DNA of 64,000 nt from Isoptericola peretonis (lineage in GTDB: Bacteria; Actinomycetota; Actinomycetes; Actinomycetales; Cellulomonadaceae), in the NCBI GenBank assembly GCA_023241745.1, contig JALQCY010000004.1, forward strand, positions 427,756-491,755, in the 5' to 3' direction. How positions within the stretch are numbered: the first letter of the stretch is position 1; every line of letters starts with the position of its first letter. Under the pieces are notes generated by a model. It made no database searches and was not told the DNA's origin. It worked only from the letters and a program-made list of their open reading frames with translations. Shown in pieces: positions 152 to 11,987 of the stretch. Made by a program: the position numbers and the translations under genes.

Positions 152-3100
152 ATGCTCCGCCGCGATCGGCAGGGCCCGCCACCGAACCATCCGTCCGTGC
201 CCGAACGCGAGTTGATGTCTACCGTGCTCACTGATCTCCTGCGGTCCACCTACCGACGCCTGCCGGAGCCTTGGCGAGCACACCTCTCCGAGCTGCGCCG
301 GCCGGGTCGACGGACCCTCGTGTCGGTCGTCGTGCCGGTGTACAACGTCGAGCGGTACGTGGGTGAGTGCCTCGAGTCGATCCTCGCGCAGACCCACCGG
401 CGGCTCGAGGTGGTCGTCGTCGACGACGGCTCGCCCGACGACTCGATCTCCGTCGTGCAGCGCATCGCGGCACGCGACCGCCGGGTGCGAGTGGTGCGGC
501 AGGAGAACGCGGGGCTCGGGGCCGCGCGCAACACGGGCGTCCGCCACGCGCGCGGTTCGATGCTGTGCTTCGTCGACTCCGACGACACCGTCCCGCCGAA
601 CGCGGTCGAGGCCATGCTGACGTCGCTCACCCGCAGCGGGTCCGACTTCGCGGTCGGCTCGCTGCTGCGGGACACGTCGGCGGGCAAGCACATGCCGCCC
701 TGGGCCCGGAAGCTGCACGACCGCACCAGGACCGGCGTGACGATCGCCGACGAGCCCGACGTCCTCAAGAACGTCTTCGCGTGGACCAAGCTGTTCCGCA
801 CCGACTACTTCCGCCGGGTCGTCGGCCGGTTCCCGGACGGCCTCTACGAGGACCAGGTCCCGTCGGCGAAGGCTTACCTCCACGGCCGGTTCGACGTGCT
901 GCAGGACGTCGTCTGCCACTGGCGGATCCGCGACGACGAGTCGTCGATCACCCAGCAGAAGTCCACGATGCGCGACCTCACCGGTCGCTGGACGATGCTC
1001 GACGAGCTGCACGAGGTGATGCGCGACGCCCCGGAGCCGGTGCGCCGCGCGTGGGAGGCCAAGGTCGTCGGCTTCGACATGCGTCCCTACTACGAGCAGG
1101 TCCCGCGCACGGACGACGAGTACTGGAGCTTCCTCCAGCGCGAGGTGCGCGGCTTCGTCGACATGGCGGGCTACGAGCGCCTGGCCGAGGTCCCGGTCGC
1201 CGATCGGCTGCTGGCCGCGGCCACCTACCACGGCCTCCGCGACGACGTCGTCGAGCTGGTGGCCCGTCGTGAGTCGCTCACGTGGAAGGTCCACGGCATC
1301 GTCGACGACGGCGGAGTGCGCCTGGGGCCCGACTACCTCGAGGGGCTGTCGCTGAGGCCCGACGGGGTGCTGGACGACCTCGACGGCGACGTCGAGGTCC
1401 TCGCGCGCACGGCCGACGTCGTCCTGGAGGACGGCTCGCTCCTGATCGAGGGCAGCGCCTTCCTCTCCTTCGTCGACCTCGCTGGTACGGAGAGCGAGAT
1501 CACCGTGGACGCCGTCTCGGACGTCGGCACCCGAGTCGTGGCGCACGTCGAGCGCTTCGCCGACGAGAAGATCGACATGCGTGCGGCGGACCCGTGGAAC
1601 GACCACTCGCGGTCCGGGTTCCGGGCACGTCTCGACCTGGGCCAGCTCGTGTCGCCGCTGTACCGGTTCGAGGTCGGCGTCCTGGTGGACGGGGTCGAGC
1701 GCCGTGCCCTGCTCACGGTGCCCGACCCTCGCGGTGCGGGGAGGCTGCCGAAGTTCGGGACGCTCGACGCCACCGGTCGGTGGTACGCCGATCACGCTCG
1801 GGAGTCCGACGTGCTGGAGCTGCGGTGCATGACGAGCGCCCGGGTCCCCGTGGAGGACGTCCGGGTGGCGGGGCGCCGGGTGGAGCTCGTGGTGGCCGGG
1901 AGCATGCCGTCGGTGCGGGGCTGTGTCGCCCGCTCCGGGACGACGGTCGTGCCCGGCACGGCGCAGCACGACGGGCACCACGAGGTCGTCGCCTTCGACC
2001 TGCCGCAGCCGGAGGGCGACGAGCGTCCCCGGACGTGGACGTTCGCGGCGCGCCCGGTGGGCGGCGGCCGGGAGCGTCGCTTCTCGTGGGTGGCCCCGAG
2101 CCGGACGCTCGACCCGGCCCCGCTCGCCGACGTGCTGGCGGGTGCCACGCGGTCCGGGAACGTCGTGGTGCAGACCGCTCCGTTGCTGGGCGAGGTCGAG
2201 GAGCTGAGCCTGGGGCGCGACGGCCTCCGGGTGCGCGGCTGGGCGGCGGCGACCGACGCCCTCCGTCGCGAGCCGCTGACGCTCGCTCTCGTGCACGACG
2301 CGACGCCGGGCAGCGACGTGCCGCTCGTGCTGGAGGCGGACGGCAGGTTCGACGTGGTCGTCCCCGTGGTCGACGCGCTCGGCAGCACCCTGTCCAAGAC
2401 CGTGAACTTCGTGGTGACCCTGCGTGCCGGTGACGTCGTGGCGCGGCCACGTGCGTCGGCGGCCCTGGTGCGCGCCCTGCCGCTGGACATGGCGGACGGC
2501 GTCCTCTGCGCGACGGCGTCGACGACGCCCAAGGCCGGGTCGGTGAGCCTGCGCCTGCGGACCCACCTGGACGACACCGAGCGGAGCCGGCGGTCGCAGC
2601 ACCGGCTGCAGCAGCGGTACCACCGGGGCGAGCAGGCATCGCTGGAGGCGGTGCTGCTCGAGTCGTTCGGTGGCCGGTCGGTGGGCGACTCACCGCTGGC
2701 GCTGAGCCGGGAGCTGCACCGGCGGGGCGACGGGCGCCCGCAGTACTGGTCGGTGGCGTGCCTGTCGACCCCGGTGCCGGAGTGGGCGACACCGGTGCTG
2801 CGGTTCTCGGCGGAGTGGTACGACGTCCTCGAGCGCGCGACGTTGCTGATCAACAACAACAACTGGCCCTGGTACTTCCGCAAGGGCGAGCACCAGACCT
2901 ACCTGCAGACGTGGCACGGGACGCCGCTCAAGCGGATCGGCAACGACGTGCCCGGCGGGAACCTCACGATCACCTACCGCCGCCTCATGCAGCGCGAGGC
3001 GCAGTCCTGGGACTACCTGCTCTCGCAGAACGAGTACTCGGCGGAGATCTTCCCGGCGGCTTTCGGGTTCGACGGCAAGGTGCTCGTGGAGGGGTACCCC

Positions 3101-3709
3101 CGCAACGACGCCCTCGTGGACGACACCGCAGAACGTACCCGCGCCGCGGTGCGCCGGCGGCTGGGCCTCGACGACGACGTCCGCGTGCTGCTGTACGCGC
3201 CCACGTGGCGGGACAACGTCAAGGAGGGCGCCCGGTACGGACGCGTGGCCTTCCTCGACTTCGACCAGCTGGCGCGAGCCGCGGGGCCGCGCACGGTGGT
3301 GCTCTACCGCGGCCACTCGAACACCGCGGCGTCCTCGAGCGACCTGCCCGGCGGTGTGGTCGACGTGACCCACCACCCTGACGTGAACGAGCTCATGCTC
3401 GCGTCGGACGCTCTCGTCACCGACTACTCGTCGATCATGTTCGACTACGGCGTCCTGCGGCGACCGATCTTTCTGCTGGTTCCCGACCTCGAGCTGTACG
3501 GCACTACGACCCGCGGGTTCTACCGGAACCTCGAGGACGTCGCGCCCGGGCCGTTGTGCGCCGACACCTCGGAGCTCGTGGCCGCGCTCGGTACCGACCA
3601 CTGGTCCGAGTGGGGCGCAGCGCACGATAGGTTCGTCGCTGAGTTCGCCCCGCGCGACGACGGCGCCGCGTCCGCGCGTGTCGTCGACGCGGCCGGCCTG
3701 ACTCTCTGA
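152..3709 (+). CDS. GT2 glycosyltransferase fused to CDP-glycerol:glycerophosphotransferase (TagF-like)
   Basis: This 1185-residue cytoplasmic or membrane-associated enzyme probably builds a phosphodiester-linked cell-wall polymer. A family 2 glycosyltransferase domain starts near residue 57 (VSVVVPVYNVERYVGECLES, then a VVVVDDGS nucleotide-binding strand and DSDD near 145) and runs to about 270. Residues 380-850 are a long, poorly conserved stretch, probably beta-rich. The C-terminal part (about 900-1175) is a glycerophosphotransferase domain with TWHGTPLKRIG, a YAPTWRDN segment and VTDYSSIMFDY, hallmarks of TagB/TagF enzymes that transfer polyol phosphate from CDP-polyol. A -10 box six bases upstream supports ATG 152; ATG 215 is the alternative. 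It is followed 30 bp later by the pyruvyltransferase/LicD gene, so an operon is likely. The transferred sugar and polyol cannot be read from sequence. Confidence 0.88.
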   Translation: MLRRDRQGPPPNHPSVPERELMSTVLTDLLRSTYRRLPEPWRAHLSELRRPGRRTLVSVVVPVYNVERYVGECLESILAQTHRRLEVVVVDDGSPDDSISVVQRIAARDRRVRVVRQENAGLGAARNTGVRHARGSMLCFVDSDDTVPPNAVEAMLTSLTRSGSDFAVGSLLRDTSAGKHMPPWARKLHDRTRTGVTIADEPDVLKNVFAWTKLFRTDYFRRVVGRFPDGLYEDQVPSAKAYLHGRFDVLQDVVCHWRIRDDESSITQQKSTMRDLTGRWTMLDELHEVMRDAPEPVRRAWEAKVVGFDMRPYYEQVPRTDDEYWSFLQREVRGFVDMAGYERLAEVPVADRLLAAATYHGLRDDVVELVARRESLTWKVHGIVDDGGVRLGPDYLEGLSLRPDGVLDDLDGDVEVLARTADVVLEDGSLLIEGSAFLSFVDLAGTESEITVDAVSDVGTRVVAHVERFADEKIDMRAADPWNDHSRSGFRARLDLGQLVSPLYRFEVGVLVDGVERRALLTVPDPRGAGRLPKFGTLDATGRWYADHARESDVLELRCMTSARVPVEDVRVAGRRVELVVAGSMPSVRGCVARSGTTVVPGTAQHDGHHEVVAFDLPQPEGDERPRTWTFAARPVGGGRERRFSWVAPSRTLDPAPLADVLAGATRSGNVVVQTAPLLGEVEELSLGRDGLRVRGWAAATDALRREPLTLALVHDATPGSDVPLVLEADGRFDVVVPVVDALGSTLSKTVNFVVTLRAGDVVARPRASAALVRALPLDMADGVLCATASTTPKAGSVSLRLRTHLDDTERSRRSQHRLQQRYHRGEQASLEAVLLESFGGRSVGDSPLALSRELHRRGDGRPQYWSVACLSTPVPEWATPVLRFSAEWYDVLERATLLINNNNWPWYFRKGEHQTYLQTWHGTPLKRIGNDVPGGNLTITYRRLMQREAQSWDYLLSQNEYSAEIFPAAFGFDGKVLVEGYPRNDALVDDTAERTRAAVRRRLGLDDDVRVLLYAPTWRDNVKEGARYGRVAFLDFDQLARAAGPRTVVLYRGHSNTAASSSDLPGGVVDVTHHPDVNELMLASDALVTDYSSIMFDYGVLRRPIFLLVPDLELYGTTTRGFYRNLEDVAPGPLCADTSELVAALGTDHWSEWGAAHDRFVAEFAPRDDGAASARVVDAAGLTL

Positions 3710-3739
3710 CCCGCCCCACCCAGCCCCGGAGCACCCATC

Positions 3740-6124
3740 ATGTCGATCTACCGTTCTGCGCGGGACCGGCTCGCGCAGGAGGCGAAGACCCGCCTCGGCC
3801 GCCGGATCCCGGACACCTTCGGCATGCGACGGTTCCGTCACCTCCTCGACGACTACGAGGTGGCGAAGCTCATCGAGGTGGACGGCAAGATCCCGCTCAA
3901 CTACTTCACGTACCGCCCCAACTTCGGCGACCTGCTGTCACCCTGGCTCGTGGAGAAGATGACCGGCCGTGAGGTGGTCGTCGCCGACCGGAAGAAGCCG
4001 CACTACGTGGTGATCGGCTCGATCATCAACCAGGCCACCGCCCGGTCGGTCGTGTGGGGCAGCGGCACCTACGGGACCGAGGGGAAGGACGAGGTCTCGC
4101 CGCGCGCGCGCTACACCGCCGTCCGAGGCCCCCTGACCCGCGCCAAGCTCGGCGCCCACAAGGGGTTCGGCATCCAGGTGCCGGAGGTCTACGGCGACCC
4201 CGCTCTGCTCCTGCCGCTGTACTACATGCCCGAGGTGCCGATCACCCACGAGTACGGCGTGGTGGTGCGCTGGAGCGAGCGGCGCTGGGCCAAGGCCACG
4301 TTCGGCCCCGGCGTGAAGATGATCGACTTCGCCCGCAGCGACGTCGAGTCCGTGGTGCGCGAGCTGCTGTCGTGCCGTCGGATCGTCACGTCGTCCCTCC
4401 ACGGGCTCATCGTGGCGGACGCCTACGGCATCCCGAACGCCTGGCTGGCCTCCGACTCGCCGCGCGGGGGCGTCTACAAGTTCTACGACTACTTCGCGTC
4501 GGTGGAGAAGTTCCGCAACCCCCAGTCGTTCGATCTCACGGGCGGTCCGGTCACCAAGGAGCGGCTGCGGGACGGGCTGACCTTCGACGGCGACGCGATC
4601 CGCTACGACTATCGTCCGCTGCTCGATGCCTCGCCCTTCCTGCGGCGCAAGAAGGGCGCCCGCCGTCGTCCCGCCCCGAGCCCGCCGTCGCGGGAGCCCG
4701 GCGCGGACCTGGAGGGCCGGCCCGGCTGCCGTGTGCTGCTGCCGTCCCTCGGGTACTTCGGCGGGAACGCCGTGAACTACCTGCCCGTGCCCGTCCAGGG
4801 GCCGGTCTCGCAGATCCGGCTCTCGCTCCCGTCGTCGACGACGGGAGAGCTGGACCTCCGCGGGCTCGAGCTGTACCAGGCCGGTCACCGGGTCCCGGTG
4901 GACGACGACAAGGCGAAGTTCGAGCAGAGCTCGGACGCCCGACGCCCCGGCCACCGGCGCAGCCCGTTCGTGCTGGGCGGCATCCGGTCGGAGAAGGAGA
5001 CAGGTCCGTGGTGGACGGTCTCGTTCGACTCGCCGGTCGCCGCGGACGAGATCCGGGTCTTCAACCGCCTCGACGGCTGGGGCGCCCGCTCGCGTCGGCT
5101 CACCGTGGCGGTCGCCGGCCCGGACGGGCAGTTCTCGACCGTCCGCTCCGTGGATTCGGACCGGGTCGTGTCCGACACTCTCGAGCTCCTGTCGCGCCTC
5201 ACCGGTCGCGAGCTCGACGCGTCCGTCCTCGCGTCCGAGGAGTCCGCGGCTGCCGCCCGTACCGAGGTGCTCGCGGAGCTCGCACGGCGCGCGGGCGAGG
5301 GCCTGCTCACGCCCGACCGTGAGGAGCAGCGGCTGCTGGCGTCTCTCGTGCGCAGGCACGTGCCGGCCGGCGAGGAGGCGTTGACCGACGACGAGTGGAC
5401 GCTCCTCGGCCACCTGCTCACGGCCGAGCGGCTCCGGATGCCGGGCACCAGCACGTCGATGCGGTCGTTCCACCGGGTGCTGGACTCTCGCGAGGCGCTC
5501 CTGCGCCTCGAGACCGAGGCGAACCGCGCCGGAGAGGTCCTCGGGACCCCGCAGGCCGTCCTCACGCGCCACGGGCTGACGAAGGTGGGCGGGCTGCGGG
5601 AGCGGTCGGACGACTACGTCGCGCTCATCCGCGACGCGGCCCGGCTGCTCGAGGAGTGCGGCTACCCCGCGATGCTCGCCTACGGCACACTGCTGGGCGC
5701 GGTGCGGGAGGGGAACTTCCTGGCTCACGACGACGACATCGACCTTCTCGTTCCGATCGACGCCGCCACCAGGGAAGACGCCGAGAAGGTGCTGGGTCGG
5801 CTGCACGACGAGCTGCGCAGCAAGGGATGGAAGGTGTCGCGCCCGAACAGCTACACCAACTTCCACCTGATCGACCCGGCGACCCGGCTGCACGTCGACG
5901 TCTTCCCGCTGCTCGTCGACGGGGAGAGCACCCAGCTGCACATGGAGAAGATGCAGCTGCGAGCGATCCCCACGTCGGTCGTGCTGCCGCCGTCGACGTT
6001 CACCTTCCTGGGCGAGGAGATGCTCGCACCGGCTCAGCCCGAGGCATTCCTCGCGGAGCGCTACGGCGACGACTGGCGGACCCCGGATCCCTTCTACGAC
6101 TGGCCGTGGAGGCTGCGTGACTGA
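3740..6124 (+). CDS. Polysaccharide pyruvyltransferase / LicD-type phosphotransferase fusion
   Basis: The 794-residue protein joins two polymer-decorating activities. Residues 1-300 resemble polysaccharide pyruvyl transferases (NYFTYRPNFGDLLSPWL at the N-terminus, SSLHGLIVADAYGIPN near 215), which put ketal pyruvate on sugars from phosphoenolpyruvate. Residues 330-470 look like a beta-sandwich module. The C-terminal domain (about 620-794) is LicD-like: YGTLLGAVREGNFLAHDDDIDLL near 648 carries the acidic DDDID metal site of this nucleotidyltransferase-fold family, whose members attach phosphocholine or other phospho-groups to glycans. GGAG lies nine bases before the ATG. The gene overlaps the next start by eight bases, so translation is probably coupled. 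I infer that one polypeptide adds both pyruvate and a phospho-substituent. No choline-uptake or activation gene lies nearby, so choline is not implied. Confidence 0.85.
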   Translation: MSIYRSARDRLAQEAKTRLGRRIPDTFGMRRFRHLLDDYEVAKLIEVDGKIPLNYFTYRPNFGDLLSPWLVEKMTGREVVVADRKKPHYVVIGSIINQATARSVVWGSGTYGTEGKDEVSPRARYTAVRGPLTRAKLGAHKGFGIQVPEVYGDPALLLPLYYMPEVPITHEYGVVVRWSERRWAKATFGPGVKMIDFARSDVESVVRELLSCRRIVTSSLHGLIVADAYGIPNAWLASDSPRGGVYKFYDYFASVEKFRNPQSFDLTGGPVTKERLRDGLTFDGDAIRYDYRPLLDASPFLRRKKGARRRPAPSPPSREPGADLEGRPGCRVLLPSLGYFGGNAVNYLPVPVQGPVSQIRLSLPSSTTGELDLRGLELYQAGHRVPVDDDKAKFEQSSDARRPGHRRSPFVLGGIRSEKETGPWWTVSFDSPVAADEIRVFNRLDGWGARSRRLTVAVAGPDGQFSTVRSVDSDRVVSDTLELLSRLTGRELDASVLASEESAAAARTEVLAELARRAGEGLLTPDREEQRLLASLVRRHVPAGEEALTDDEWTLLGHLLTAERLRMPGTSTSMRSFHRVLDSREALLRLETEANRAGEVLGTPQAVLTRHGLTKVGGLRERSDDYVALIRDAARLLEECGYPAMLAYGTLLGAVREGNFLAHDDDIDLLVPIDAATREDAEKVLGRLHDELRSKGWKVSRPNSYTNFHLIDPATRLHVDVFPLLVDGESTQLHMEKMQLRAIPTSVVLPPSTFTFLGEEMLAPAQPEAFLAERYGDDWRTPDPFYDWPWRLRD

Positions 6125-7403
6125 CGACGTCCTCGCCCGACTGCGTTCGGCGCTCGACATCGGGGGCGAGATCCCCGACGGACTGAGCAAGGTCTGGATC
6201 TACCGGGGGCGGATCCTCGCCGCCGACTACCGCAGTCCGAAGGGCGTCGCGTTCGCCTTCGACATCACCGTCGAGGGCTCCACCGCGCACGTCGCGGTCG
6301 CCGCACGCGACGAGCGGTCCGGGGAGGTGGTCCGCGCGGCGTGCGAGGGCATCGCGCGGTCCACCACCGGCAAGAAGGTCGCGCTGGCGTCGGTGGACCT
6401 CGACGCGGCGGACGTGTCGGAGGGGATCCTCGGCCCGATGCGTCGCGCGCACCAGGCGATCTTCGCCGCCGCGGCGCCGAGGTCGTCGTCCGTGGAGGAG
6501 TCGACGTGGACGCACGAGGGCGTCGCGGTGAACTACGTGCGACGGGCGCCGAAGGAGGACTGCGACCAGATCCTCGTGGTCTTCACATCGATCCGCACCG
6601 TGGCCACCGACCTGGACTTCGACGGTCCGGACGGCACGTACCTCGCGAGCAACCGCGCGGAGCTCGTGTTCGTCCACGACGACCACGACCAGGCGTTCTG
6701 CTACTACTACGGCACGGGCCGCGACGACCAGGTGGCCCGCGCGGTCACGGCGTTCGTCCGCCACCTCGCGGCGCAGCGCGGGGTGGGTCTCGAGCAGGTC
6801 GTGCTCGCGGGGATGTCCAAGGGTGGCGCGGCGGCGCTGATCATCGGGGCGCGACTGCCCGGGGCCACCGTGGTGTCGCTCGTCCCGCAGCTCGCGATCG
6901 GCACGTACCTGCTGGGCCGAACGGAGCCCTTCCTGGAGACGATCGCGGGATCGCGCGACGGCGAGGCCGTGGCCTGGCTCGACGAGGTCGTCCCTCGGGC
7001 GCTGGCCGACGCGACGAACCGCGACGGGTGCTACTACGTGCTCACCAGCCCGGGTGACGACAACTGCTTCGACGGGCTCGCGCAGCACGCGGGTGCCGTC
7101 GCGCGTCTGCGCCACCTCAGTGTGCTGGCGGCCGGCTCCGCGCGGGCGAGCGACCACTTCAGCACCCTGAAGTACCTGCTCCCGACGATGATCTCCCTCC
7201 TGGGCGTCCTCGCCACGGGAGTCCGCCCGGACCTTACGGGGGTCTCCACCACGACGGCGCGGGGCATGGCGCCCGCACACGGCCGGAGACCGGTCCGCGG
7301 TCCCGCGCCGGTGAGGGCGGTGCAGCTGCGTCGCGCGCTCCGGGAGGTCCGAGCCTCGTTGGCCGCCGCAGAGGCGGCGGGGGAGCCTGCCGGCATCCGG
7401 TAG
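6117..7403 (+). CDS. Alpha/beta-hydrolase-like protein of a glycopolymer locus
   Basis: 428 residues with a GTG start, overlapping the upstream stop by eight bases behind a GGAGG. The only clear motif is a nucleophile elbow, VVLAGMSKGGAAALIIG, placing a candidate catalytic serine at about residue 234. It follows a central strand (DQILVVFTSI near 145) and precedes a probable histidine segment (ASDHFSTLKYLLP, about 345), as in alpha/beta hydrolases. The G-x-S-K-G-G form is known to me from capsule-associated proteins of the XcbB/CpsF type and from Asp2-like accessory proteins, but I cannot confirm membership. There is no signal peptide, so it should be cytoplasmic. Its tight coupling to the pyruvyltransferase/LicD gene says it works on the same polymer, perhaps as an esterase, acyltransferase or phosphotransferase. 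The C-terminal 60 residues are Arg/Ala-rich and low complexity. Confidence 0.7.
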   Translation: MTDDVLARLRSALDIGGEIPDGLSKVWIYRGRILAADYRSPKGVAFAFDITVEGSTAHVAVAARDERSGEVVRAACEGIARSTTGKKVALASVDLDAADVSEGILGPMRRAHQAIFAAAAPRSSSVEESTWTHEGVAVNYVRRAPKEDCDQILVVFTSIRTVATDLDFDGPDGTYLASNRAELVFVHDDHDQAFCYYYGTGRDDQVARAVTAFVRHLAAQRGVGLEQVVLAGMSKGGAAALIIGARLPGATVVSLVPQLAIGTYLLGRTEPFLETIAGSRDGEAVAWLDEVVPRALADATNRDGCYYVLTSPGDDNCFDGLAQHAGAVARLRHLSVLAAGSARASDHFSTLKYLLPTMISLLGVLATGVRPDLTGVSTTTARGMAPAHGRRPVRGPAPVRAVQLRRALREVRASLAAAEAAGEPAGIR

Positions 7404-7463
7404 GAGCCCTGGCCGCTCCCGGTCGGTGACGCGCCGCGATTTCGGGGATGGTGCGCGAACGGC

Positions 7464-7469
7464 TAACGT
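7464..7469 (+). promoter_or_regulatory. -10 box TAACGT, leaderless promoter
   Basis: TAACGT matches TAnnnT and ends six bases before the GTG at 7476, so the transcript of the QueC-like gene would start at its initiation codon. There is no Shine-Dalgarno sequence before this GTG, which agrees with leaderless expression. Confidence 0.5.
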
Positions 7470-7475
7470 GCCGTC

Positions 7476-8717
7476 GTGGTTCGAATCAACACTCCGGAGC
7501 TGGAGCGAGACGGCGACGAGGTCGTCGTCAAGGCAGAGCTGTCCGGCATCCGCCCCGCGGGGACGCTCCGCTACCGCTTCCCGGCGGCGCACGAGCCCTC
7601 ACCCGAGGCGATGGCGGACGCGCTCTTCCCGATCGGGCTCCTCCTGGCGATGGCCACGGACCGTGAGCTGGTCCTCGACGCGCCGGTCTCGCCCGCCCTC
7701 CTCGACCAGAGCGCGACGGTCCAGGACGTCTTCGCGGCCTGGTACCCGGGGAAGTTCGCCCGGGCGAGCCTCCGCGGGGTTACCGCGAGGACCGGAGCGA
7801 CCCCGCCCCGTGCCGCGAAGGCGCTGTCGACGTTCACCGGCGGCGTGGACTCGTTCTACACGCTGCACCAGAACTCCGACGCGATCTCGAGCCTGCTGTT
7901 CGTGCACGGCTTCGACATCCCGCTCGCGCACAAGGAGTTCCGCAAGGTCACGTCGGAGCATCTCCAGGCGTCGGCTGCGTCGGCCGGCAAGGAGCTCATC
8001 GAGGGGGCGACCAACCTCCGCCGGTTCCTCAACCCCCACGTCACCTGGTCGACGATGTCGCACGGGGCGGCGATCGCGAGCTTCGTGCTGCTCCTCTCCG
8101 GCGGGCACGGCACGCTGTACCTGCCGGCGTCGTACTCGTACGCGGACCTGTTCCCGTGGGGCAGCCATCCTCTGATCGACCGGCTGTGGTCCACCGAGTA
8201 CCTCGCCATCCACCACGACGGGGCGGGCGCCACCCGCGTCGCGAAGACCCGCGCGATCGCGCACGACCCGGTCGCTCAGCGCCACCTGAGGGTGTGCTTC
8301 CAACGCACCGGCGAGTACAACTGCGAGCGGTGCAAGAAGTGTGTGAGGACGATGATCGCCCTCGATCTGGAGGGCGAGCTGGGATCCTTCTCCACCTTCA
8401 CCCAGGGCGTCGACCCCGCTGCGGTGCGTGCCCTGGGCGTGCGGACGGAGACCGACCTGGCGTTCGCCCGGGAGAACCTGGACTTCGCGCGCGAACGCGG
8501 CCGGACCGATATCGCCGACGCGCTGAGCTCGTCGATCGACACGTACCTCGCCGGGAAGACGCGACCCGCCGCTGGGACGCCGTCGCCGGAGACCGCGGCG
8601 TTGCGGGCACAGCTCGAGGCGGCCCGGGCCGAGGTGGCCATGCTCGAGCGGCGTCCGTCCGAACGGGCCTGGAGCGCCCTGCGGCGTACGGCTCGTCGTC
8701 TCGGAAGATCCCGCTGA
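7476..8717 (+). CDS. QueC-like PP-loop ATPase in a glycopolymer locus
   Basis: 413 residues. STFTGGVDSF (F120-S126 region) is the SGGxDS-type PP-loop that binds ATP in N-type ATP pyrophosphatases. Near the C-terminus C274-x8-C283-x2-C286-x2-C289 (CFQRTGEYNCERCKKC) matches the spacing of the structural zinc site of QueC, the enzyme that converts 7-carboxy-7-deazaguanine to the nitrile preQ0 through adenylation and ammonia addition. The protein is almost twice QueC length, with an extra 115-residue N-terminal domain and an Ala/Glu-rich helical tail (about 365-413). No queD, queE, queF or tgt is in the window, and the gene sits among polymer enzymes. It may therefore activate a carboxylate of a polymer precursor to an amide or nitrile. 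That is inference; the substrate is unknown. Confidence 0.75.
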   Translation: MVRINTPELERDGDEVVVKAELSGIRPAGTLRYRFPAAHEPSPEAMADALFPIGLLLAMATDRELVLDAPVSPALLDQSATVQDVFAAWYPGKFARASLRGVTARTGATPPRAAKALSTFTGGVDSFYTLHQNSDAISSLLFVHGFDIPLAHKEFRKVTSEHLQASAASAGKELIEGATNLRRFLNPHVTWSTMSHGAAIASFVLLLSGGHGTLYLPASYSYADLFPWGSHPLIDRLWSTEYLAIHHDGAGATRVAKTRAIAHDPVAQRHLRVCFQRTGEYNCERCKKCVRTMIALDLEGELGSFSTFTQGVDPAAVRALGVRTETDLAFARENLDFARERGRTDIADALSSSIDTYLAGKTRPAAGTPSPETAALRAQLEAARAEVAMLERRPSERAWSALRRTARRLGRSR

Positions 8718-8734
8718 ACACCGACGAGATCGAG

Positions 8735-8740
8735 TACGCT
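8735..8740 (+). promoter_or_regulatory. Possible -10 box TACGCT before the GT-D gene
   Basis: TACGCT fits TAnnnT and lies just after the preceding stop codon, giving a start site near 8747 and a leader of about 70 bases to the chosen GTG. No clear -35 is visible. Confidence 0.3.
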
Positions 8741-8806
8741 CGGCGTCCGAAATGACCCGTCCGGTCCGTGGCCGGTCCGTGCTTGTCCTCGGGTCCCCGG
8801 ACGACG

Positions 8807-8812
8807 AAGGAG
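8807..8812 (+). promoter_or_regulatory. Ribosome binding site AAGGAG deciding the GT-D start
   Basis: AAGGAG lies six bases before GTG 8819. The other in-frame candidates, GTG 8768 and ATG 8831, lack a site at proper distance, so 8819 is preferred. Confidence 0.55.
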
Positions 8813-8818
8813 CTGCTG

Positions 8819-9868
8819 GTGGGCGAACCGATGGACCGATGGGCGCCGCGTCGGTGGGCGCGGGCGGCCAAGGGAGCGCTGAGCGATCTCCGGCGGACTG
8901 CTGCGGCAACCGAGCGACAGGTCGAGATTGCCAGACGGGCGAAGCGTTCGACGGAACAGCTCTCCAAGTCCATGGCGGCGACGGCACGCACCACGCAGCA
9001 GCAGCTGGACGTGGTGGCGTCGACGCTTCGGGCACAGCACCAGCTGTTGGAGCAGCTACGGGCCGACGCAGCCAAGATCGAGGCCGAGGTGCGGACGATC
9101 AGGGTGGCCGGCACCGCTTCGACGATGCGTGCGGTTCACGATTTCGCCGCGACGCGAGTGCTGACCTATCGAGAGACGCTCGAGTCGCTGGCCAGGGACG
9201 AGCTGAGCTTCGCTCGTTTCGGCGACGGCGAGCTCCGCTTGATGGTGGACCCGCTGTACCGATTGGGGTTTCAGGGGAACAGCGTCGCGTTGCGCGAGGC
9301 GTTGCGCAGTACTCTGCAACGCCAGGACGATTCCTTGCTCGTCGGCTGGCCACGCGCCTTCTGGACCCCGCACAACACCACCGTGTGGAGCATCGTCTGG
9401 GACGACGTCCAGCCGTTGGTGCCCCCGACGGGACGGTTCGGGAACAGTCACGTCTCCCGACCGGACTGCTTCGAGGAGCTCGGCGAGGAGGCGGTCGAGC
9501 TCTGGCGTCAGGTCTGGCAGGGCCGGCACGTCACGATCGTGACGGGGGAGGGGTCGCGTTTCGACCTCGTTCCTCAGCTCTTCGACAATCTCGCGGGGCA
9601 CGACGTCGTCCACTCCACGCCACGCAACGCGTTCGCAGACCTCGAACGCCTCGAGCGCGAGATCCTCGATCGGCGCAGCTCGGATCTCCACCTGGTGTCG
9701 TTGGGGCCGGCGGGGACCGTTCTGGCAGCCCGCCTGGCCGCTGCCGGGGTTCGAGCGATCGACATCGGTCATATCTCGAACAGCTACCTCTACGTGTTCG
9801 AGGGCGAGACCTACCCGGAGTCCCTCCCTGGGGTCCGTCGCGCCCGCACATCCGCCGGCCGAGCGTGA
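8819..9868 (+). CDS. Coiled-coil GT-D fold glycosyltransferase (DUF1792-like)
   Basis: About 349 residues from GTG 8819. The first 110 residues are rich in Ala, Arg, Gln and Glu with heptad-like spacing (RRTAAATERQVEIARRAKRS and following), a likely coiled coil for oligomerisation or docking. The rest carries the two marks of the GT-D family: SFARFGDGELRL, a metal/nucleotide-sugar segment, and SLGPAGTVLAARLAAAGVRA followed by IDIGHISNSY near the end. GT-D enzymes, first characterised for adhesin glycosylation in streptococci, transfer glucose from UDP-glucose. The role here is probably adding a sugar to the wall polymer. There is no signal peptide. It converges with the acyltransferase gene, leaving only 19 bp between the stops. 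The sugar donor is inferred, not shown. Confidence 0.78.
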   Translation: MGEPMDRWAPRRWARAAKGALSDLRRTAAATERQVEIARRAKRSTEQLSKSMAATARTTQQQLDVVASTLRAQHQLLEQLRADAAKIEAEVRTIRVAGTASTMRAVHDFAATRVLTYRETLESLARDELSFARFGDGELRLMVDPLYRLGFQGNSVALREALRSTLQRQDDSLLVGWPRAFWTPHNTTVWSIVWDDVQPLVPPTGRFGNSHVSRPDCFEELGEEAVELWRQVWQGRHVTIVTGEGSRFDLVPQLFDNLAGHDVVHSTPRNAFADLERLEREILDRRSSDLHLVSLGPAGTVLAARLAAAGVRAIDIGHISNSYLYVFEGETYPESLPGVRRARTSAGRA

Positions 9869-9887
9869 GATAGCGGACGGCGCCGCG

Positions 9888-11987
9888 TCACCGGAGCGCA
9901 CCCAGCTCCCTCAGCCCGCGCAGCAGGTACGGCGCCATGGTGCGGGTGTACGTCGTCGTGAGGTGATGGCTGTCCCGGTAAACGGTGACGCCGCCGATCA
10001 CCGAGGGGCAGACACCGTCCCGGCAGTAGTACGGCCGCAGGTCGAGGTGGAGCGCCCCGGGGACCGCCTTCGCCGTCGCGGCGAACGGGTCGGAGTACGG
10101 GTACGCCTCGTCAACGGTGACGGCGCAGCTGTCCGGCTCGACCACCTCCAGCTCGGCGAGGCAGTCGATCGGGCGTGACGGGTGCGCCGGGTTGTCCGAG
10201 AGTCCGACGATCGTCACGCCGCGGTCGGCGATCGGGCGCCAGGCGGCTGCCATCTCGGCGACCTTCTGGTCAGGTTCGCCACCGATGGTCCTGGCGTAGC
10301 CGGTAGTGACGATGAGGTCGATCTCCCCGGCGTGCGCCTCGAACCACTCCTGGAGCTGTTCCTTCCACGTCTCGCAGGTCGCGACCCGTTGCGGGTCGTC
10401 GTAGTCCATGACCCCGGTGGTCCACGCGCAGGTCGCCTTGAGCTGTGGGGTCACGCTGATCGTGCCCTGCTCCGCGAGGGCCTGGAAGGCGGGCAGCATC
10501 GCCCGCGTGTGCGAGTCGCCGACGACCACGACGTGCGGGACGTCCGGGTCGTCCACGGGGCCGTAGGAGCATTCCTCGAGGTCCTCCTCGTCGCTCTCCA
10601 CGAAGCACGGCAGCTTGGTCCAGTCGGCTGCGACCGCGTCGAGCGACGGGACCAGCATCCCCTCGAGGTCCGGATTCTCGCAGGGGTTCTCGGCGTCCAT
10701 CGAGGCGGCGCCGAAGCACCGCGGCATGTCCTCGACCAGGCGGGCGGCGACCGCCGCCTGGTCGCGGGCACGCTGGTCGGCGACGAACCAGGCCGAGCCG
10801 GCGACGAGCGAGAGGATCACGGCCCCGACCGCAGTGAGCCCGAGGGTTCGACGCGGCCGCGGGAGCCCCCAGCGCGCGGTGAAGCGCACCGGGTCCTCGA
10901 CGAACCTCTTGGTGAGCGCGGACACCAGGAAGACGCCGGCCAGGAGGGTGACCCGTTCGAGGAGCCCGGGCACGTGCCCCAGGACGAACGGGGCGAGCAC
11001 GATCGCCGGCCAGTGCCAGAGGTAGAGCGAGTAGGAGATCTCGCCGGTGTACTGCACGGGACGCCACGCGATCAGCGGCGCGGGCGCGAGGCGCGTCCGG
11101 GGGGTCCCCGCCCAGATGACCGCGGCCGTGGCCAGCACAGGCCACACGGCGGCCGTGCCGGGGAACGGCGTCGACGCTCCGTACGCCAGCCCGCACAGGG
11201 CGATGCTCGTGAAGCCGGCCCAGCTGACCAGCGTGCGCCAGCGTGCGTCCGGGCGGCGGGCCGGCCCGACGAGGAGCAGCGCGAGGAGCGCGCCGGCGCC
11301 GAACTGCCACGCTCGGGTGGTCGTGACGAAGTACGCGGACGCCGGGTTGGTGGCGGTGAGCCACAGCGAGTACCCGAACGACGCGGAGGTCGCCACGGCG
11401 AGCACGGTGAACGTCACGCCTCGTTGCGAGCGCCGGGATCGTCCCGCCAGGACCGCCGACAGACCGACGAGCAGAGGCCACAGCAGATAGAACTGCTCCT
11501 CCGCGGAGAGCGTCCAGTAGTGCTGCACGGGGGACGGGTCGTTGTCGGCGCCGAGGTAGTCGACTGCGTCGGCGGCGAGGACCCAGTTCTCCACGTACAG
11601 CGTGGCGCCGAGGACCTCGCGGAACCATGGGGCCCAGAACACCGACGGCACGACCAGCAGCGTGGCGACGGCGGTGACGGCGATGACGAGGTAGGCGGCC
11701 GGCAGGAGGCGGCGTGCGCGACGGGCCCAGAAGCGGGGGAGCGACACCCTGCCCGTCGACGCAGCCTCACGGGTGAGGTGGCTGGTGATGAGGAAGCCGG
11801 AGATGACGAAGAACACGTCGACGCCGACGTAGCCGCCGGGCACGCGGCCCGGCCAGAAATGGAACCCGACCACGAGCAGCACGGCGAGCGCGCGCAGCGC
11901 CTGCACCTCCAGCCGCAGCGGGCGTGGTTCGGCGGGGGCGTCCGGAGGCCGGCGACGTACTCGCTCCTGCTCGGGCGTGGGAAGCAT
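9888..11987 (-). CDS. Membrane O-acyltransferase, acyltransferase-3 plus SGNH domain (OafA/YrhL-like)
   Basis: 699 residues. The N-terminal 380 residues are an acyltransferase-3 domain with about ten membrane segments: LRALAVLLVVGFHFWPGRVP carries the conserved FH, followed by GVDVFFVISGFLITSHL. The C-terminal third is a periplasm-side SGNH hydrolase-like domain with VVGDSH (S492) and a DSHHLT motif (D672, H675). Such proteins move acyl groups, usually acetyl, across the membrane and onto extracytoplasmic glycans. The gene is last in a minus-strand operon, nine bp after the methyltransferase stop, so the polymer is probably acetylated. All catalytic motifs are present. The acceptor is unknown. 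Confidence 0.88.
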   Translation of the reverse strand: MLPTPEQERVRRRPPDAPAEPRPLRLEVQALRALAVLLVVGFHFWPGRVPGGYVGVDVFFVISGFLITSHLTREAASTGRVSLPRFWARRARRLLPAAYLVIAVTAVATLLVVPSVFWAPWFREVLGATLYVENWVLAADAVDYLGADNDPSPVQHYWTLSAEEQFYLLWPLLVGLSAVLAGRSRRSQRGVTFTVLAVATSASFGYSLWLTATNPASAYFVTTTRAWQFGAGALLALLLVGPARRPDARWRTLVSWAGFTSIALCGLAYGASTPFPGTAAVWPVLATAAVIWAGTPRTRLAPAPLIAWRPVQYTGEISYSLYLWHWPAIVLAPFVLGHVPGLLERVTLLAGVFLVSALTKRFVEDPVRFTARWGLPRPRRTLGLTAVGAVILSLVAGSAWFVADQRARDQAAVAARLVEDMPRCFGAASMDAENPCENPDLEGMLVPSLDAVAADWTKLPCFVESDEEDLEECSYGPVDDPDVPHVVVVGDSHTRAMLPAFQALAEQGTISVTPQLKATCAWTTGVMDYDDPQRVATCETWKEQLQEWFEAHAGEIDLIVTTGYARTIGGEPDQKVAEMAAAWRPIADRGVTIVGLSDNPAHPSRPIDCLAELEVVEPDSCAVTVDEAYPYSDPFAATAKAVPGALHLDLRPYYCRDGVCPSVIGGVTVYRDSHHLTTTYTRTMAPYLLRGLRELGALR

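Follow-up and report, generated by a model that had tools for sequence, protein, structure and literature searches.

The gene analyzed here, which lies in a surface-polymer locus of Isoptericola peretonis, encodes a QueC-like PP-loop ATPase that is not a queuosine enzyme, and its family, still uncharacterized, shows a strong linkage to polysaccharide pyruvyl transferases. The reading we favor, with a probability of roughly 0.4, is that this family modifies a building block of surface glycopolymers, with a carboxylate, most likely that of a pyruvate ketal, being activated with ATP and amidated. A wider and more specific statement, namely that in bacteria of many phyla a QueC-like enzyme paired with a pyruvyl transferase converts a glycan pyruvate ketal to a nitrile or to an amide, plain or amine-linked, has to be considered doubtful.

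Genomic context of the QueC-like gene

The window, i.e. the whole stretch of 64,000 nucleotides that was analyzed (contig JALQCY010000004.1 of assembly GCA_023241745.1), contains five genes on the + strand between positions 152 and 9868, no gap between them exceeding about 70 nt (Table 1). The fourth of them is a 413-aa open reading frame with a GTG start, and this start is supported by the alignment of a Brachybacterium relative (L015), which begins at residue 1 (query 1-359, 44%). Two genes upstream lies the pyruvyl-transferase/LicD gene, whose 794-aa product also contains a discoidin-like stretch, below the cut-off; the putative hydrolase gene overlaps it, and no blastp relative of the hydrolase was found at 1e-4 in the other loci fetched for this study. 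Beyond 9868, genes for an AT3-SGNH acyltransferase and a methyltransferase are found on the opposite strand. The placement of the gene in a cell-wall polymer locus, claimed in the first-pass annotation, is borne out by the TagF-type, LicD, GT-D and AT3-SGNH genes on its flanks. No promoter- or terminator-like consensus was detected in positions 3500-10000, a result that carries no weight either way.

The QueC-like gene is single-copy in the host assembly (4.47 Mb, rated 100% complete). Searches of this genome with family models gave no PTPS/QueD match and no TGT match, and for QueC there was a single sub-threshold hit elsewhere and none above the cut-off, so that the earlier remark on the lack of other queuosine genes in the locus holds genome-wide for these three families.

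Table 1. Positions in the window of the genes around the QueC-like gene and of the features of its product.
Feature	Coordinates	Strand	Basis or remarks
Glycosyltransferase family 2 fused to CDP-glycerol glycerophosphotransferase (TagF type)	152..3709	+	Pfam
Polysaccharide pyruvyl transferase (PF04230, residues 104-240) and LicD (PF04991)	3740..6124	+	Pfam; candidate functional partner
Putative alpha/beta hydrolase, weakly like XcbB/CpsF capsule proteins	6117..7403	+	29.3 bits, cut-off 125
QueC-like PP-loop ATPase, uncharacterized family	7476..8717	+	Sequence, relatives, AlphaFold2 model
Extra domain at the N-terminus (strands, two helices; about residues 1-112)	7476..7811	+	Alignment, AlphaFold2
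PP-loop T-G-G-V-D-S, residues 121-126	7836..7853	+	Sequence, alignment
G-S-H-P motif, residues 229-232	8160..8171	+	About where QueC has the YPDC substrate motif
Predicted zinc site C274-x8-C283-x2-C286-x2-C289	8295..8342	+	Exact motif match
C-terminal helical extension, residues 314-412, two long helices at the end	8415..8711	+	AlphaFold2; pLDDT lower after about 360
GT-D fold glycosyltransferase, start uncertain	8768..9868	+	PF08759, E 4.8e-30

Sequence and predicted structure of the protein

The stretch FTGGVDSF occupies residues 120-127, and the four cysteines of the predicted zinc site are the only ones in the protein; both motifs, already noticed in the first reading of the sequence, are exact in the window protein and kept in its relatives. 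No Pfam, NCBIfam or PADLOC model matched the protein above cut-off. At E values up to 1, PF06508 was not listed for it, the NCBIfam library, which should contain a NASAT model, returned 0 families, and PADLOC, QatC profile included, gave no hit. Weak matches were obtained to a PHROG annotated as QueC-like (E 0.0022) and, below the cut-off, to DUF6395 (PF19932; E 0.0068), the latter over the stretch from K257 to the zinc site.

An AlphaFold2 model built on a 70-row alignment (mean pLDDT 93.3, pTM 0.85) predicts strands and helices over about residues 1-90, then a Rossmann-type core and a helical C-terminal part, with the PP-loop set between a strand (116-119) and a helix (124-132). The extra N-terminal domain proposed at first is real in this model. 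Foldseek comparison with viral models placed two phage QueC proteins on top (probability 1.00, E about 4e-3), with a TM of 0.56 normalised on the 215-aa target. Against the PDB, no match was better than E 0.037, and other PP-loop enzymes (TtuA) ranked highest. A profile of the 70 relatives gave weak hits only when compared with PDB sequences; one of them was the QatC structure 9vlk (E 0.52), in whose alignment the PP-loop and the CGRC motif stand in the same order as in the query profile. Local profile comparison gave a probability of 33 to 14 QueC and of 88 to four QatC sequences, the zinc region alone being aligned in both cases, while a forced global alignment to the 14 QueC brought the PP-loop and the zinc site into register, with low confidence between them. 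The fold class of the window protein is clear and close identity to a single solved structure is not.

Conservation and distribution of the family

A genome collection was scanned with the pattern NC[GE]xC[EKF]KCx[RQS], which gave at least 535 confirmed relatives. The best 80 by similarity to the window protein were retained (79 loci), and the counts of relatives and loci given below, with denominators 70, 77, 78 and 52, rest on these best 80 of at least 535. Since the pattern selects for N282, C283, C286, K288 and C289, the invariance of the zinc cysteines after C274 among the scan relatives is not independent evidence. C274 and the PP-loop lie outside the pattern, and 14 relatives collected by similarity alone (set A1) keep all four cysteines.

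Four residues are invariant among the 70 aligned relatives (G123, D125, G145 and C274, 70/70 each), R254 is found in 69/70, and K257, D235, R272 and W89 in 68/70 each. Position 121 is S or T in all 70, S126 is kept in 65, and the whole [ST]GGxDS is present in 61. The ATP-binding residues, whose loss in most homologues would have been at odds with the first-pass annotation, are therefore retained. In the N-terminal domain, M59 (64/70) stands out along with W89. The spacing between C274 and C283 is exactly eight residues in 9/70 relatives and 7-10 in 68/70, and it varies also in canonical QueC. The window protein has E284 and K287 where most relatives have G and E, and it carries the family signature, made up of HGFD, [ST]HP, R254/K257 and NCGxCEKCxRT plus the PP-loop.

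The window protein thus resembles canonical QueC in the PP-loop, a similar order of core elements, the four-cysteine zinc site, with C-x8-C-x2-C-x2-C as published, and the top fold match among viral models. It differs in its greater length, exceeding the 231 aa of E. coli QueC by about 180 residues, in falling below the Pfam cut-off and in lacking, like its aligned relatives, the motifs that bind the 7-deazaguanine substrate: strict patterns for YxQxHxxE, VPxRN and YPDC were each found in 0/70 relatives, versus 9, 14 and 13 of 14 canonical QueC. The reverse holds for [ST]HP, present in 55/70 relatives and in 0/14 canonical QueC. Matches to PF06508 at E up to 0.01 were seen in 7/70 relatives (best 8.2e-5) and matches to the PADLOC QatC profile in 3/70 (best E 0.015). 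In 50 carrier genomes, canonical QueC (PF06508, 1e-10) is absent from 27 and present as a separate copy elsewhere in 23, and none of its 25 hits falls inside a QueC-like locus, so that the neighborhood survey proposed in the first-pass annotation, as run here for canonical QueC, left its reading standing.

The family is patchily spread, being present in 6/394 genomes of the class sample, the window's own counted. The record titles of relatives cover Actinobacteria, Verrucomicrobia, Proteobacteria, Acidobacteria, Nitrospirae, Omnitrophica, Chloroflexi-type, Cyanobacteria and Planctomycetes, and plasmid relatives in 26 records added Priestia, Azospirillum, Gemmobacter, Gloeothece and haloarchaea. 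A phage origin was also considered and rejected, as the phage collection gave no tblastn match at E 0.001.

Linkage to polysaccharide pyruvyl transferases

PF04230 was searched in 50 and then in 27 genomes, the latter including that of the window and two others reached by search, and it was present in 42/50 and 23/27 of them. A hit mapped into a locus was retained only if the open-frame length agreed (37/78 loci); this comparison served to reject hits coinciding by chance with small contigs. Two loci that failed it (L021, L033) were restored by hand, because a local profile places a pyruvyl transferase there, which makes 39 loci with PF04230; another (L057), for which the local profile indicates a pyruvyl transferase at a distance of about 3.1 kb, is not included in the counts.

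A pyruvyl transferase gene lies within 3 kb of the QueC-like gene in 37/78 loci from the best 80 of at least 535 relatives; the two genes share a strand in 34 of these, with the pyruvyl transferase downstream in 24 and upstream in 10. It lies within 500 nt in 27/78, with 21 on the same strand downstream. These counts still contain near-duplicate loci (e.g. L022/L023, L020/L024, L056/L061, L015/L016), L059 is outside the 78-locus table, L023 is excluded from the 77-locus count used below, and many contigs end within 10 kb. When the same 50 genomes were compared, PF04230 was within 3 kb of 25/52 QueC-like loci versus 3/86 flippase genes (PF01943), with a Fisher p of 3.6e-10 that treats related loci as independent; the flippase control was placed by contig number and coordinates, without the open-frame length check, and it includes one match, among the 86, that scores below the cut-off. 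In the 39 loci holding PF04230, 27 had it within 500 nt, versus 4.0 expected by random placement. The two open reading frames are at most 30 nt apart in 13/41 pairs, with uncurated starts, and in an Azospirillum plasmid, where a domain scan confirmed PF04230, they form a two-gene unit among unrelated annotated genes, in a gene table that is incomplete.

A natural fusion exists in a Dehalococcoidia MAG (L067), where a 724-aa protein combines an N-terminal QueC-like part with a C-terminal PF04230 domain (30.7 bits, cut-off 25.3). It was the only one above cut-off when the long open reading frames of L021, L067, L079, L080, L084 and L048 were scanned for extra domains; a second presumed fusion, in L081, was dropped as an overlapping open frame. 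Comparison of the window pyruvyl transferase by blastp, done within loci with QueC-like genes only, gave matches to the PF04230 open reading frames of L009 (Gemmobacter), L058 and the L067 fusion.

The pair is not a constant trait of the family. In a FastTree tree it is present in 42/84 rows, scattered and requiring at least 22 changes, which indicates repeated gain or loss of the pairing (for the window and the five plasmid rows, states were assigned by hand). No PF04230 gene is found within 3 kb in 41/78 loci, and an actinobacterial clade of 14 rows, with Williamsia, Rhodococcus and Tomitella among its members, lacks it within this distance in 13, L064 alone having one; the scanned neighbors in this clade include esterases, a lipase, an alcohol dehydrogenase and ABC-2 exporters, with TagF-type genes in L039 and L086. 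Co-evolution of the two proteins was not supported in the set tested, from which four near duplicates and short pieces were excluded: the distances of the two partners gave r 0.16 (p 0.053, n 32), and distant pairs alone gave r 0.01.

Other neighboring genes

The UDP-glucose/GDP-mannose dehydrogenase family PF03721 is present in 49/50 of the same genomes, and within 3 kb of 1/52 and within 10 kb of 2/52 loci, its proximity being counted at QueC-like loci only. AsnB-like amidotransferases, for which PF00733 frames of 400 aa or more were counted, are present within 3 kb at 7/52 QueC-like loci versus 1/86 flippases, a link that fades at 10 kb (10/52 versus 9/86); the L025 gene failed the length comparison and was excluded. 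A divergent AsnB-like protein of about 600 aa recurs near the QueC-like gene in L025-L028, L036, L044, L053 and L091, often in a triad with a pyruvyl transferase, and the two that were scanned gave weak Asn_synthase and GATase_7 matches. In 30/77 loci the fetched stretch holds neither a PF04230 gene nor any counted glycan-gene cluster, a figure based on clusters found in the fetched loci that misses rare families, such as the TagF gene of L039. The Sulfuricurvum copies (L019, L022) adjoin fumarate-reductase-type genes rather than glycan genes.

Pseudomonas and Thauera relatives look like members of lipopolysaccharide-core loci. Genes of the heptosyltransferase type, of the WaaP kinase type and for a carbamoyltransferase were identified across the set L056, L061 and L081, and L033 and L058 group with such loci by cluster membership; the pair with the pyruvyl transferase thus stands near WaaP-type kinases, in some of these loci with a carbamoyltransferase. 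In L058 (P. fluvialis), two pyruvyl transferases directly precede the QueC-like gene, and another is found about 8 kb downstream. According to part of a review of pyruvylated glycans, the core of P. stutzeri (strain OX1) contains two pyruvate ketals, carbamoyl and phosphates, which, taken with L058, adds weight to the view that loci of this kind do produce pyruvate ketals. The same core is also a possible counter-example, as nothing is reported there on its pyruvate carboxylates.

Proposed reaction and alternative explanations

In the reaction that we propose, the PP-loop would bind ATP and AMP would be transferred to a carboxylate of a glycan precursor with release of pyrophosphate, after which ammonia, or an amine, would displace AMP to leave an amide. 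The adenylation step is suggested by analogy with the PP-loop superfamily, and ammonia as the nucleophile by QueC, which takes a carboxylate to an amide and then a nitrile with ATP and ammonia (PMC13329287, in part), as well as by the lesser linkage with AsnB-like amidotransferases. Continuation to the nitrile in a second round, as in QueC, would be possible but less likely, amide formation needing fewer assumptions; an AsnB-like enzyme has been reported to make a peptide nitrile (PMC13060819, in part). Gene linkage points to a pyruvate ketal, placed on a sugar by the neighboring pyruvyl transferase, as the most likely carboxylate, and the outcome would be removal of negative charge from the polymer or attachment of a group. 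This ketal is a better candidate than a uronic acid because of the counts within 3 kb for PF04230 (25/52) and PF03721 (1/52). The original idea of a QueC-like ATPase repurposed in surface-polymer synthesis stands, with adenylation and amidation as its most economical form, while the uronic acid given as its example does not fare well. The family need not have a single substrate, given the loci that hold neither PF04230 nor a counted glycan cluster.

The same adenylation and amidation could instead act on another glycan group, either the carboxylate of a uronic acid or other sugar, to give a uronamide, or an N-acetyl group converted to an acetamidine as in WbpG/NASAT, in which case a common acceptor sugar would account for the association with pyruvyl transferases. 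The 41/78 loci without a pyruvyl transferase within 3 kb agree with this, as do the sugar enzymes that adjoin some copies: a DegT aminotransferase gene overlaps the QueC-like gene in L034, an NDP-sugar epimerase cluster occurs in 13 loci and a UDP-glucose/GDP-mannose dehydrogenase is present in the Priestia plasmid stretch L013. There is also a precedent, since NASAT enzymes (WbpG, WbuX, LpNASAT) are PP-loop proteins with a zinc tetracysteine that are implicated in amidating a sugar N-acetyl group in surface-polysaccharide pathways (PMC10607449, in part). However, the NASAT tetracysteine CxxC-Xn-[GN]xCxxC is absent from the window protein, which no NCBIfam model matched, and the maker of uronic acids, PF03721, lies within 3 kb of 1/52 loci, versus 25/52 for pyruvyl transferases; we consider this explanation rather unlikely. 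A role like that of QatC or Cap9, in which a partner protein, perhaps the pyruvyl transferase itself, would receive a carboxylated base or similar acid at its N-terminus, seems to us quite improbable. QatC, from the qatABCD anti-phage defense system, is similar in length (about 400 aa), in having N- and C-terminal extensions around the QueC core and in a conserved HP motif, and it gave the higher probability in the local profile comparison (88, versus 33 for QueC), but its zinc spacing is C-x19-C, different from that of the window protein (PMC13329287, in part). The resemblance in HP is partial, as only two of four fetched QatC open reading frames have [ST]HP (TTHP in two, SVHP in one and TASP in one at this place). 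Cap9, of type IV CBASS, shares the QueC-like core and joins a carboxylated base to a protein amine (PMC11996544, in part; PMC13279940); unlike the 413-aa window protein, which lacks the QueC substrate motifs and has no CD-NTase neighbor above cut-off, it is about 185 aa long and keeps these motifs (PMC13329287, in part). An N-terminal glycine is required in QatB and in the CD-NTase, and MG occurs within the first 25 residues in 2/43 pyruvyl-transferase open reading frames of the loci, with uncurated starts. Added to this, neither PTPS nor TGT, nor QueC above cut-off, is present in the genome, and the neighbors of the window gene are glycan genes and not qatA, qatB or qatD. Membership in these anti-phage systems was thus rejected on the lack of a PADLOC hit, the weak QatC matches in 3/70 relatives and the few MG starts, and QatC and Cap9 were kept as a mechanistic analogy.

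Sulfur transfer, with thiolation of an adenylated oxygen as in TtuA-type PP-loop enzymes, would fit the best PDB fold matches; these are weak, though, probably reflect the shared PP-loop core only, and concern enzymes with an iron-sulfur cluster, according to the PDB titles, as opposed to the QueC-type four-cysteine site of the window protein. No sulfur-carrier gene appeared among the scanned neighbors in an annotation scan done with no dedicated model, and we see very little chance of this reaction. Lastly, the PP-loop and zinc motif of QueC type would be expected of a true queuosine or 7-deazaguanine enzyme lying by chance in a polymer locus, an explanation that was rejected and to which we give almost no credence: the three substrate motifs are lost in all 70 relatives, the host has none of PTPS, TGT and QueC above cut-off, and 23/50 carrier genomes have a separate canonical QueC elsewhere.

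Relation to previous work

Among QueC relatives, Cap9 was recently shown to modify a protein in phage defense and QatC was proposed to do so, and the glycan-linked branch described here would represent a further repurposing. A published survey of PF06508 starts from Pfam members and would therefore miss the window protein; the part of it considered here describes no cluster like this family, and its clusters 7, 8 and 10 were left unanalyzed by its authors (PMC13329287, in part). Among the open-licence PMC titles listed by literature searches, none dealt with the QueC-like family or its pairing with pyruvyl transferases, and a paper on another polysaccharide-linked family mentions pyruvyltransferases and, in the part available, not the QueC-like one (PMC4000134). 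The partnership is the new element of this work, and an amidated or nitrile form of the pyruvate ketal was not found described: searches of the open-licence PMC literature for amidated pyruvate ketals returned nothing relevant, and the available part of the review of pyruvylated glycans has no mention of amidation and uses "amide" twice, both times for other bonds. If the pair acts in sequence, the pyruvate ketals of cell walls, capsules and lipooligosaccharides may be masked, and harsh chemical analysis could strip such a mask unseen.

Additional observations

In Brachybacterium halotolerans (L016, 10307-11401) the QueC-like open reading frame is broken into two frames, perhaps by a frameshift or a sequencing error. 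The Priestia plasmid stretch with two tandem QueC-like genes also encodes a DUF6395 protein (L013, 16817-18133). DUF6395, for which no open-licence PMC paper naming it was found, resembles the window protein over the stretch given above and differs from it in that the match stays below the cut-off, and it may be a further relative of the QueC-like family. Arrays of three to four QueC-like copies occur in L041, L053, L040 and L073, with one of the L053 copies being short; like glycosyltransferases in a pathway, such arrays suggest several substrates.
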